Positions 55,071 through 60,644 of a stretch of DNA of 64,000 bases are shown here, piece after piece. A program made the position numbers and the translations under genes. The notes beneath the pieces were generated by a model. It had not been told where the DNA came from and ran no database searches. It saw only the letters and a list, made by a program, of their open reading frames with translations. The number at the start of each line of letters is the position of its first letter. The first letter of the stretch is position 1. The stretch is from an uncultured Clostridia bacterium (GTDB lineage Bacteria; Bacillota; Peptococcia; Peptococcales; Peptococcaceae), in assembly GCA_944391285.1 (NCBI GenBank), contig CALXSY010000003.1, forward strand, positions 1-64,000. Direction: 5' to 3'.

Positions 55071-55099
55071 ATTATATATTACTGCTTTTTATAATGCAA
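55071..55099 (-). promoter_or_regulatory. Promoter of phosphodiesterase A operon
   Basis: Minus-strand TTGCAT, 17-nt spacer, TATAAT. Confidence 0.65.
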
Positions 55100-55359: not shown

Positions 55360-56823
55360 TTAAAACAAAACATTGCCCAAAGGCATAAATACTAAAAGCA
55401 TTGCCAAAGTAGCAGCCACCATTGCAATAACTGCAGCCATCATAATATATCTGCTGGAAATATGCTCCGCTTGCGAATAAATCAAAGCTCCATAGAAAGA
55501 CGAAGCTGGAAGTAAAAATGCCGTTTGCGCCATCAAGCACATTAATACAGCCATCATATGCAAATTTAAACCAAGGCTTTCTGAATATGGCATAATTACC
55601 GCAATCATCAGAAGCATTACAACTGTATTATTGGCAAAGTTCGTTAAAATTAAAGTAATTACAAATACAATAACTGTAAAGGTAAAGGCACTATGCCCAC
55701 CCAAAATTGGATTGACTAAAGACATAACCCAAGCAGATATACCTGTTGCTTCGTTGGTCAGCATCGGTGAAAAAGTAAAGGCTATTGCCATCAAAAGTAC
55801 CGAATCCCAAACTATCATGCTGGCTGTTTTTGAAACATCCAGCATAGGCTTGCCATCAATTTTGACTAAGACCATAATTGCAGTTAGAAGCCAGGAAACA
55901 CCCAAAGTTCCCAAACGACTATATGTTTGCACAAAAGCATTATCTCCTAAAAAACTAACTAATCCTGTAAGCATCATCATTACCAAAAAGACTATTAAAT
56001 ATATCCCGGCAAATTTTTGTCTTTTGTTCATCGGCGGCAAGTCTTTAAATACCATTGCTGCATCAGCATTTTTTAAAGCAGATAAATCAATACGCAAAAC
56101 AAATTTCATCATTAAAATAAAAAGTATTAAAGCTGCTGTACATCCGCAAATAAGCAGGATAGAGGCTGAGACAATATTTATTTCCGTCATCGGTGTCATG
56201 CCATAAAAGAAACCCATGACAGATACAAATGCGGACTTATATGGTAAAGATATTATGCCGCAAACAAAAGCAAACATTAAACCTACCACCATAGCAGCAC
56301 AATATTTGCTTTTCCGAGGTATGCCGGCAGTTTCTGCTATTTTATAAACCATCTCCCACATAACAAAAAGCAAAGGCATTTCTCCGCCTAAAGCCACAAT
56401 GATATATAAGCCCAGAATTAAAGCACCTGTCAAAAGCCAAGGTCTGCCCTCAATAATTTTTCTGGTGATGATCCATCTAACTAAATAGTCGAAAACCCCG
56501 GTTTGCGCCACAGCAAATATTACCGCCATAGCAAACACGCACATAATTACCAGGCTATTGCCAAAGGACGATGTGCAAACAGCAGCTGAGTTCTCGCCAA
56601 AAATAATCATGGCAATAAGTCCCATCAAGCTGGGCCAAAACATGCCTACTAAAGACCAAAGATAAACTAACCCTAATAAAATACCCAAATATTTCATACC
56701 AAGCGGCGTAACTGTACTAAAAGGAGGTAAAAAACCAACGCCGAACATTAAAATGAGACCAATAACTGAATGAATATAATATTTTTTATCTTTTGATAAT
56801 TTTCCTTTTGTTTCTACGCTCAT
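55360..56823 (-). CDS. SLC13/DASS-type anion permease B
   Basis: A 487-residue permease with about 12-13 helices of the same superfamily as permease A but quite diverged. GNSLVIMCVFAMAVIFAVAQTG and the second-half NFANNTVVMLLMIAVIMPYSE resemble the paired SNT-like substrate loops of DASS carriers. Second gene of operon B, 94 nt after phosphodiesterase B with hairpin B between. Substrate unknown. Confidence 0.82.
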   Translation of the reverse strand: MSVETKGKLSKDKKYYIHSVIGLILMFGVGFLPPFSTVTPLGMKYLGILLGLVYLWSLVGMFWPSLMGLIAMIIFGENSAAVCTSSFGNSLVIMCVFAMAVIFAVAQTGVFDYLVRWIITRKIIEGRPWLLTGALILGLYIIVALGGEMPLLFVMWEMVYKIAETAGIPRKSKYCAAMVVGLMFAFVCGIISLPYKSAFVSVMGFFYGMTPMTEINIVSASILLICGCTAALILFILMMKFVLRIDLSALKNADAAMVFKDLPPMNKRQKFAGIYLIVFLVMMMLTGLVSFLGDNAFVQTYSRLGTLGVSWLLTAIMVLVKIDGKPMLDVSKTASMIVWDSVLLMAIAFTFSPMLTNEATGISAWVMSLVNPILGGHSAFTFTVIVFVITLILTNFANNTVVMLLMIAVIMPYSESLGLNLHMMAVLMCLMAQTAFLLPASSFYGALIYSQAEHISSRYIMMAAVIAMVAATLAMLLVFMPLGNVLF

Positions 56824-56917: not shown

Positions 56918-58948
56918 TTAATCTTCCAAAATCTGATAAATTGGTGCTCCCTCAGCATTTGCCGGCATTCTTACGCCGCCAAGCACTGCTACAGTAGGAG
57001 CCACATCCACCTCACGAATGACACGTGTGGTTTTAAAGTTTTTCTTGATTCCTTTGCCTGCTGCAGCAAAAATAGGTGATTGCGATGTGTGTGCAAGCCC
57101 TCTTGCAGTTGATAGTCCATCACCATGATCGCCTAAATGTCTATCAGTCTGCATAACTATCAAATCCCCGCACTCTGGTCCACCTAAACCAATTACAGCT
57201 GCATCTTTATTGCGCAATACTAAAGAATATGGGCAATGACCTTTTTCATCTTTCATATTGTAAAAATGCGTAATAATATCTGCTTCCAAATCATATTTAT
57301 CTGCCGGATCAACAATACCAGTTGCATACTTACCTTTTAAATTAATATATATTTCATTCATACGCGTAAATACTGCCTTAGTTTTACTCCAATCTATTTC
57401 TTGTAACGGATTACCATCATCATCATATAAAACTTCAGTATATCCCCAATCGCGCATAAATGTAGCATCAACACCTGCTCCGGCATAATCGGAATAACCT
57501 TGTTGTTCTGTACAAGTCAAACCATGATCTGATATCAAGAAAATTGTCCAACCTTCATCTAATAAATGTAAAAAGCGCCCTAAATAGTAATCATTCTGCT
57601 TAGATATTTCAACCAAAAATCTTTGATAATCCTCAGCAGGTAATGTTCCGCCGCCGTTAGCAAATGCAATAAACATATGCTTGATAGCGTCATCGTTATG
57701 AACATGCGAAAAAATGACCTCTATACCTTTTTTCTCAATCATATAATGTAAACTGTCAGCCCACCACCGCATAGTACGCATCCAGTTTTCCAGCATGCAA
57801 TCCTCAATCAACTCTTTATCTACGGAGCCAAGATTGGAAACCGGCGGTGGAAATCCAATATTTTCAATAATTTCTTTATGCAAAGACTTCGGTGAGAATA
57901 CACTGTCATCTGCAATATCAATACCAGCAGAAATCCACATTCTTACTTTACTGCCGTCTTCAGCAATTTCCAAAACTCTCATATTACGAGCAACTTCAAA
58001 AGTCTTATCTTTTTTTATAGCTTCATCAACAATACCTTCAACAAATTCCTTGTTTTTAATTACAACTATAGGTTCGTTGGATTTTTTGTTTTTATAAATT
58101 GCTACTTTATCGTAAACACCGTCTTCATTTTTAGTCAACAATGCCTGCCGTCTAATTAGACCTTGTGAAAATAAAATTATAAATTCTTTAGCATCATCAG
58201 GTACCGCTATACTCCACCCCTCAGCTTTTTTGATTGGAGATAAACTAGCATCTAAGGGTTGCGCTGTCATATCACTTTTTGCTCCTTTTGGCAAACGGAT
58301 AATCTTTATATCGGGAGCGGTTGCCATTTGATGCTGATACTCTTTTTGATCGCCTAAATCGGTAGCATTTTTCGGAGTATCCTCCATCTCAATATCAGTG
58401 ATTACGCACATATGAGAAGTTTCACCGGCAGCTTTTTTAAACGTCACCACTTCGATATTTTCTGAAGCAACAGCAACATACTCCCAGTCTTTTTGTCCCA
58501 TTCCCATGCAAATACCTTCTGGCTGTGTGCCATCAACTACATATAAATTTTTACTGTCGCTGCTCGGCGGCCATGAAGATCCAGGCCAATGCCAAACAAG
58601 GGTTTTTTTGCCCGCTTCAGCAAAGACATTCCATACTTGCTCTGCTTGGCACAATCTAGAGTCAAGTGCATAACCAAAGGTATCCAATTTTTCGGGGTTT
58701 TGTCTCCAAAAGTCAGTAATGCCATGAGTCATTGGATAAGCACCAGTAGCCAAGGTAGTCCACATTGGAGGAGTAATAGTTGGCATTGCTCCCAACAAAA
58801 CCAGATCTTCTCTAGCTGAACCCCTTTCTAAAAACTTTTGTAAGTTAGGCATATAACCTTGTTCCATATGATATTTAGTTAAAACAGGATCCATTCCATC
58901 GATACCTAAAACTAATATTTTGTCAGCAATGTTTGTAGCTTTTAGCAT
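56918..58948 (-). CDS. Alkaline phosphatase-superfamily (NPP-type) phosphodiesterase B
   Basis: A 676-residue paralogue of phosphodiesterase A. Shared blocks: LGIDGMDPV (D17), MPTITPPMWTTLATGAYPMTHGI (T59), the WPPSS segment, NDDAIKH (D and H), FLISDHGL (DH) and GDHGDG (last His). No signal peptide. The insert between metal motifs is diverged from A, suggesting a different but related substrate. The start is the ATG 8 nt after AAAGGAGA; an ATG 45 nt upstream has no site. First gene of operon B. Confidence 0.85.
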   Translation of the reverse strand: MLKATNIADKILVLGIDGMDPVLTKYHMEQGYMPNLQKFLERGSAREDLVLLGAMPTITPPMWTTLATGAYPMTHGITDFWRQNPEKLDTFGYALDSRLCQAEQVWNVFAEAGKKTLVWHWPGSSWPPSSDSKNLYVVDGTQPEGICMGMGQKDWEYVAVASENIEVVTFKKAAGETSHMCVITDIEMEDTPKNATDLGDQKEYQHQMATAPDIKIIRLPKGAKSDMTAQPLDASLSPIKKAEGWSIAVPDDAKEFIILFSQGLIRRQALLTKNEDGVYDKVAIYKNKKSNEPIVVIKNKEFVEGIVDEAIKKDKTFEVARNMRVLEIAEDGSKVRMWISAGIDIADDSVFSPKSLHKEIIENIGFPPPVSNLGSVDKELIEDCMLENWMRTMRWWADSLHYMIEKKGIEVIFSHVHNDDAIKHMFIAFANGGGTLPAEDYQRFLVEISKQNDYYLGRFLHLLDEGWTIFLISDHGLTCTEQQGYSDYAGAGVDATFMRDWGYTEVLYDDDGNPLQEIDWSKTKAVFTRMNEIYINLKGKYATGIVDPADKYDLEADIITHFYNMKDEKGHCPYSLVLRNKDAAVIGLGGPECGDLIVMQTDRHLGDHGDGLSTARGLAHTSQSPIFAAAGKGIKKNFKTTRVIREVDVAPTVAVLGGVRMPANAEGAPIYQILED

Positions 58949-59019
58949 TTGAATATCTCCTTTTTTTGAATTTTCTGTATTTATTATGCGCATATATAAA
59001 TACGATGTCTACATTTATA

Positions 59020-59048: not shown

Positions 59049-59061
59049 GCCAATCTTTGTT

Positions 59062-59110
59062 GCTTTTTTCTCTCTAATGCAATTATAAATTGCATTAGAG
59101 AGAAAAAAGC
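59062..59110. repeat. Perfect 49-bp inverted repeat (23-bp arms, 3-nt centre)
   Basis: Both arms read GCTTTTTTCTCTCTAATGCA plus ATT inward, with ATA at the centre and no mismatch. It ends 13 bp upstream of the -35 of operon B, and its distal edge forms the T run of the LysR-B terminator. It could be the operator of LysR B, a second terminator, or a trace of a duplication or insertion. Confidence 0.85.
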
Positions 59111-59131
59111 CAGGATATGTATTCCTGGCTT
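59103..59131 (-). terminator. Terminator of LysR regulator B
   Basis: Minus-strand stem AAAGCCAGG / CCTGGCTTT then TTTC, immediately after the lysR stop and overlapping the inverted repeat. Confidence 0.75.
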
Positions 59132-60058
59132 TTATACTGTTCCATATACTTTTACAAAATAATCTACAAATTTTATTATTAGCTCAGGAGCATTTTTCGG
59201 AACCAAAAGCCCATGACCAACTTCTATTTTGGGTTGTAAAGGTATTATTTTTACATCATTATACTTATTAATTTGTGTCGAATTAAGTAAAGCAAATTCT
59301 GTAGTAACAATAGCTTCTGTGCCATTTACTAAAGCAGTTTCACAGCTTTGGCTTGAACCAGAAACCCTTATTTTTCTTCCTTTAAACCCATATTTTTTAA
59401 TGCAATATAGGAAAAAATTTTCCCGACCAAATGATTCACTATAAGAAACTATTGGTACATTTTCCAAATCTTTAATGTTTACACTTTTATGTTTGCTTAT
59501 TGGCATTGCACTATTCATCAGCAAAACTAAAGGTTCTACTTTTAAAAAATATATATCAAAACTTTCTTCCAGAGTTTCTTTTAATGTCAAATAATCGTTT
59601 TTTTCAAACAATGCAAAAATTAATTGCGCAGAATAATCCTTTGCCAAAATTTTATCAAAAACATACATTGGCTCCTTATATTCAGCAAAATAGATAAAAC
59701 TTGGATGTTCCTGAATAAAATGATTGACAATACTATTAAAAGGCAAAAAAAATGTCGGTGCTAATAAAATTTGGAATACTTCTCCCAAGCTGTTGCCTTC
59801 TACTTTTCGAGGAGACAACTCGTAAATTTTCTTTTTAATATCAATAATCTGCTTGCAATATTGGTAAAGTTTCTCTCCTTCTTCGGTGGGAAAAACTCCG
59901 TTGCGGTTGCGATGAATTAGTTTTACTGCCAACTCTTCCTCTAATTGCTTTATTGCTCTGCTAATATTTTGGTGAGTTACATACAACATTTCTCCTGCTT
60001 TTGTCATTGAACGCAAATCAACTATCGCTACGAAATATTCCAATTGCTCCAAGTACAT
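59132..60058 (-). CDS. LysR-family regulator B
   Basis: A 308-residue LTTR: MYLEQLEYFVAIVDLRSMTKAGEMLYVTHQNISRAIKQLEEELAVKLIHRNRNG is the HTH; the effector domain follows. The start is the ATG after GGAGG; an upstream frame extension lacks a site. Same direction and directly upstream of operon B, so the likely controller of that operon. It is only distantly similar to regulator A. Confidence 0.9.
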   Translation of the reverse strand: MYLEQLEYFVAIVDLRSMTKAGEMLYVTHQNISRAIKQLEEELAVKLIHRNRNGVFPTEEGEKLYQYCKQIIDIKKKIYELSPRKVEGNSLGEVFQILLAPTFFLPFNSIVNHFIQEHPSFIYFAEYKEPMYVFDKILAKDYSAQLIFALFEKNDYLTLKETLEESFDIYFLKVEPLVLLMNSAMPISKHKSVNIKDLENVPIVSYSESFGRENFFLYCIKKYGFKGRKIRVSGSSQSCETALVNGTEAIVTTEFALLNSTQINKYNDVKIIPLQPKIEVGHGLLVPKNAPELIIKFVDYFVKVYGTV

Positions 60059-60187
60059 AAAAACAACCTCCATTCGCCAAAAATATAACTTCATTTTGCT
60101 ATTTTCATCCTAATTGCTTACCCTCATTATTATAGCACATTATATCTCAATCTTCTATCTTAATAGCAAAAATACGGTTAATGCTCA

Positions 60188-60485: not shown

Positions 60486-60644
60486 CTAAAGATGTGTACA
60501 CTTGTTCTCTTGGATAGAATTCAGCAAATATTCCTGCTCCTCAACAGCTAAATAAGACACCTCAACCGCTGGATGAAAGGACATCAATTTTTCGTCAACC
60601 ATATCCAACAACTTAGAGATTAACTCAGTTAGCCGAATATAGCG
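60486..60644 (-). pseudogene. ParB/RepB-like partition protein remnant
   Basis: A 52-codon fragment without start: RYIRLTELISKLLDMVDEKL then SFHPAVEVSYLAVEEQEYLL, ending ENKCTHL-stop. This strongly resembles the central part of ParB-like proteins carried by integrative conjugative elements in Firmicutes (pattern RYIRLT-LI--LLD-VDE). A shifted frame after the stop continues the homology (SLAFSCLKA, like SLAQALRLKKL), so it is a frameshifted relic. Confidence 0.6.

Follow-up and report, generated by a model that had tools for sequence, protein, structure and literature searches.

Organization of the region upstream of operon B

The window, a stretch of 64,000 nucleotides considered at its full length, carries three minus-strand genes around the element described here. 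LysR-B (59132-60094) is a regulator gene with a Pfam HTH_1 match (E 8e-20), PDE-B (56918-58948) belongs to the type I phosphodiesterase/nucleotide pyrophosphatase family and is the first gene of operon B, and a CitMHS/DASS-like anion transporter (55360-56823) is the second. The start of PDE-B was placed at the ATG with AAAGGAGAT before it, and for LysR-B the ATG at 60058 is probably the better start. The best solved relatives of LysR-B are BenM/CatM, and its DNA-binding domain is closest to that of BenM among solved structures. Between LysR-B and a TetR gene, an apparently decayed copy of a ParB/Noc-like gene was observed; this remnant (60496-60644) shares 81% identity over 149 bp with a longer gene elsewhere in the genome (L112:223-371), the family being named by eye.

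The end of LysR-B is separated from the operon B promoter by a perfect palindrome at 59062-59110. It runs GCTTTTTTCTCTCTAATGCAATT-ATA-AATTGCATTAGAGAGAAAAAAGC, with two 23-bp arms (59062-59084 and 59088-59110) that match without a mismatch around a 3-nt centre. The preliminary description had given its 49-bp length, coordinates, arms and centre exactly, and had also located it correctly between the LysR-B terminator (stem 59133-59105) and the promoter (59048-59020). This promoter, TTTACA-17-TATAAT on the minus strand, is predicted from a match to the consensus at 11 of 12 positions, with the start expected near 59013; promoters and transcription starts throughout this work are consensus predictions. 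The intrinsic terminator of LysR-B (59105-59133, minus strand) has its T run (59104-59109) inside the promoter-distal arm, which agrees with the earlier remark that one arm edge doubles as the terminator T run, and the distal edge of the palindrome falls 2 bp inside the GC stem of that terminator. The palindrome itself has its T run outside 5' and its A run outside 3', the reverse of an intrinsic terminator. Two minus-strand dyads were delineated in this region: a core dyad, GCAA-TTTATAA-TTGC (59079-59093), with its centre at 59086, that is, at -73 from the predicted start, which we propose as a LysR-type recognition site, and a weaker dyad, GCAA-CAAAGAT-TGGC (59049-59063; centre about -43), which agrees with RCAA-N7-TTGY at 7 of 8 positions and is proposed as an activation site.

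Long inverted repeats in the genome

The search for perfect inverted repeats covered 1.53 Mb, or 90%, of the 1.70 Mb genome. With a minimum arm length of 13 bp it returned 131, of which about 110 are terminator-like, with an A run first and a T run last. The longest of all is the palindrome, and its polarity is opposite to that of the terminator-like majority. Sequences simulated at the size of the genome, or with the AT-rich composition of the locality, yielded arms of at most 12-13 bp, which upholds the view that the palindrome is beyond chance, with the real genome leaving it less isolated than the simulation does. Since relatives too contain repeats with arms above 20 bp, length by itself is not unique to it.

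Other repeats of this genome were inspected individually. An 18-bp-arm perfect palindrome stands directly upstream of a GntR-looking regulator gene (L110:2641-2680) and is a probable operator, and at the start of contig C2 two convergent terminators have T runs that pair as a 10-bp palindrome (L046:54-100). A palindrome in a coding region (L112:433-465) was considered as a further inverted duplication and set aside; its frame stays open, and no insertion was evident by inspection. The idea of a general arrangement, in which a terminator precedes a T-first hairpin and has its T run in common with it, was abandoned as a system, since such tandems with arms of at least 10 bp numbered only 2 among 193 terminators, namely this locus and the minor case on contig C2.

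A dyad at a preferred distance in PDE promoters

The organism groups with Peptococcaceae, its two closest named hits being metagenome-assembled genomes of that family. A scan of G002, from another genus of the family, revealed a perfect palindrome with 29-bp arms just upstream of a PDE promoter, of the same layout and unrelated in sequence. This prompted a comparison of the sequences upstream of 125 PDE genes, drawn from this genome and its Peptococcaceae relatives with one genome per species. The PDE-B family is very large: type I phosphodiesterase genes are greatly expanded (this genome has 23 matches, the relative G003 has 55) and often stand beside CitMHS/DASS-like transporters and LysR genes.

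Scanning spacers of 1-20 over the 125 regions, this locus being one of them, placed 7-nt-spacer dyads at the top (108 versus 59, z 7.1, half-site 5). The half-site and distance scans left this locus out. When all 4-mers were ranked at the 7-nt spacer, GCAA and ACAA were the top half-sites, and among 13 spacers by 120 distances from independently predicted promoters the best cell was spacer 7 at -73 to -75 (13 versus 2.5 expected), while 385 non-PDE promoters of this genome showed no excess in the same cell (12 versus 11.1). This observation is further strengthened by the frequency of RCAA-N7-TTGY, at 0.161 per PDE region versus 0.034 per control region, a wording of the motif that was settled after the first two palindromes had been seen, the spacer and distance scans being open. 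Inverted-repeat centres likewise accumulate in PDE promoters, with 9 of 35 at 72.5-76 bp versus 1.3 by permutation (0 of 5000 permutations as high), and these sites are to be read as not fully independent, as the PDE genes are paralogues and some of the species are close. What the sequences show, besides the palindrome, is this class of dyad, the distance at which it is favoured and an enrichment specific to PDE genes, and the central dyad of the palindrome, GCAA-N7-TTGC at -73, has the half-site, spacer and distance that PDE promoters favour. The dyad ACAA-N7-TTGT is kept in three congeneric species (L013, L015 and L016), which differ in the DNA upstream of it.

The palindrome had been presented as a single odd object; the comparison instead makes it one of a series centred about 74 bp upstream of predicted PDE starts across the family. 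In G002, the series comprises L174 (29-bp arms, centre -75) and two terminator-like members, L183 (21-bp arms, centre -75.5) and L179 (25-bp arms, centre -69). Shorter arms occur at L226 (11 bp, centre -74), at L051 in this genome (10 bp, centre -73), at L195 (13 bp with one mismatch, centre -75) and at L012 (9 bp, centre -73). Two further palindromes are L196, with 24-bp arms whose centre falls at -74 only if the second-best promoter is used, and L060, with 19-bp arms centred at -65.5. The palindromes near -74 have arms of 9-29 bp and are mutually unrelated in sequence. As separate observations, the terminator of the upstream gene and the operator dyad seem merged at L183 (about 4670) and L179 (about 19000), and tandem perfect hairpins of 16 and 15 bp lie upstream of the PDE gene at 3537 in L024 (G003).

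A probable LysR-type operator

We consider it likely that the palindrome is the LysR-type operator region of operon B, most likely bound by LysR-B, with an outer symmetry that may have arisen by a template switch during replication. Half-sites spaced by 7 nt are typical of CcpC and BenM, and T-N11-A is the textbook form of a LysR half-site. The half-sites at 59079-59093 stand 7 nt apart, which supports the link to a LysR operator that had been suggested earlier, and they do so at the position shared by the PDE family. The central register is C-N11-G and departs from the T-N11-A box; several sister sites are C-N11-G and others T-N11-A. It is therefore firmer to say that the element works like a LysR-type operator than that it is a canonical one.

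In general, a LysR-type regulator covers 50-60 bp; its recognition site often lies near -65 and its activation site in the -35 region (PMC8407307). For CcpC, a dyad at -66 is joined by a half-dyad at about -30 (PMC8514465). Here the putative recognition site falls at -73 from the predicted start, within the family peak of -73 to -75, and the second dyad, GCAA-N7-TGGC, lies 30 bp downstream against the -35 box, a distance that fits the known RBS/ABS spacing (PMC8407307, PMC8514465); at other loci the second dyad peaks at 30 and 32 bp, in partly orthologous cases. LysR-B adjoins its presumed target. Of the 18 LysR genes present in the stretches examined, 13 are no more than 3.5 kb away from a PDE gene. 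On the most economical reading, LysR-B is the first candidate regulator of operon B. A LysR-B tetramer would place one dimer at -73, on the central dyad, and its second dimer at -43, on the weaker dyad beside the -35 box, and a ligand would then switch the operon B promoter on or off. That a protein binds here, and which one, is inferred from sequence, as are the ligand, the start of transcription and the direction of regulation. The similarity noted for TTGCATTA near 55092, ahead of PDE-A, was set aside, as it looks like the -35 box of the PDE-A promoter. In the literature searched, no LysR-type operator was described as a perfect palindrome.

Origin of the extended symmetry

Symmetry beyond the central 15-25 bp is unneeded for LysR-type binding, which does not require perfect arms of 23 bp. 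Template switching at imperfect inverted repeats perfects them in E. coli (PMC7202029), and it can make perfect stems in one event (PMC8794818). The best explanation, held tentatively and rated slightly less likely than not, is that DNA polymerase switched template at an imperfect dyad, turning it into a perfect hairpin, and that the switch ended at the base of the LysR-B terminator stem. The folded terminator hairpin could have halted copying of the nascent strand near the distal edge, and the shared edge lets the distal arm act as the T run of the LysR-B terminator. In one weak comparison, the paralogous promoter L056 carries the proximal-arm sequence GAAAAAGCAA at the promoter-proximal position without a mirror arm, which would be consistent with a distal arm copied from the proximal one. 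It is also conceivable, if rather doubtful, that operators of a large set of LysR/PDE systems in Peptococcaceae repeatedly become long perfect palindromes (21-29 bp arms of differing sequence) at a fixed promoter distance, either with template switching as a standing source of new operator specificities or because a cruciform or extended symmetry is used in regulation.

The same kind of event could have produced a 23-nt inverted copy at the terminator hairpin with no regulatory role. The perfection of the arms, an edge 2 bp inside the terminator GC stem as a natural stopping point, and the creation and perfection of hairpins by template switching (PMC8794818, PMC7202029) are all in keeping with such a by-product. 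A random event, however, would not pick -73, and the centre sits at the family-wide dyad position with the favoured half-site, which leaves this account unlikely.

Other explanations

The palindrome could also be the operator of a dimeric regulator outside the LysR family that reads the long palindrome itself, for which the palindrome before the GntR-looking regulator gene of this genome provides a parallel. LysR genes accompany the PDE genes, however, and the 7-nt spacer with a paired second dyad is a LysR-type feature, which makes such a regulator quite improbable.

At the RNA level, the palindrome might fold within a read-through transcript and form part of a double terminator, an insulator or an RNase III site separating LysR-B from operon B; such an element is less probable still. 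The minus-strand RNA fold is very stable (z -7.7), and the comparable G002 palindromes L183 and L179 are terminator-like as well. Against this, a complete LysR-B terminator already lies upstream, the tandem arrangement with a T-first hairpin is confined to the two cases counted above, and neither strand has a T run directly after the stem, so that the palindrome itself is no terminator and its identity as an intrinsic terminator was rejected on polarity. Searches against Rfam returned only sub-threshold chance matches to generic hairpins.

A miniature mobile element, as had been suggested, or an assembly artefact is the least credible explanation, given that the perfect inverted repeat, albeit in a draft genome of 36 contigs, is present in a single copy (at up to 3 mismatches only its own two arms match in the genome), that its core is absent from 45 other genomes of the class and its arm from viral contigs, that no target-site duplication was seen by eye at its edges, and that an assembly fold-back is unlikely because independently assembled genomes carry palindromes at the same promoter position. 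The search for conservation in relatives likewise came back empty, with neither a counterpart of the intergenic DNA in the other genomes searched nor a clear LysR-B orthologue among the relatives examined.

Implications and comparison with known systems

If the palindrome is read as a LysR-type operator, a single unusual element yields a rule that can be tested across a large gene family: LysR-type dyads would sit at -74 in PDE promoters, with a sequence that varies by locus. The more than 20 PDE matches here and the 55 in another genome form a natural set for studying the divergence of paralogous regulators and operators, and the same set lets one ask whether template switching rewrites both halves of an operator together.

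Long inverted repeats in this genome are mainly bidirectional intrinsic terminators. The palindrome resembles them as a long perfect intergenic hairpin, but its T run comes first and its A run last, which leaves no U tract after the stem. With the quasipalindromes perfected by template switching in E. coli lacZ reporters (PMC7202029, PMC8794818), it shares perfect arms, a short loop, an adjacent strong hairpin and a site that was probably an imperfect dyad before, whereas the event here is a putative one.

The closest known parallels would be CcpC at citB and BenM at benA, where, as proposed here, two sites lie upstream of the start and one of them near the -35 box, in the general RBS/ABS layout. 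Unlike those sites, the present one is centred at -73 from the predicted start rather than at about -65, has C-N11-G in place of T-N11-A, and is perfectly symmetrical over 49 bp, and its LysR gene lies upstream in the same direction instead of being divergent.
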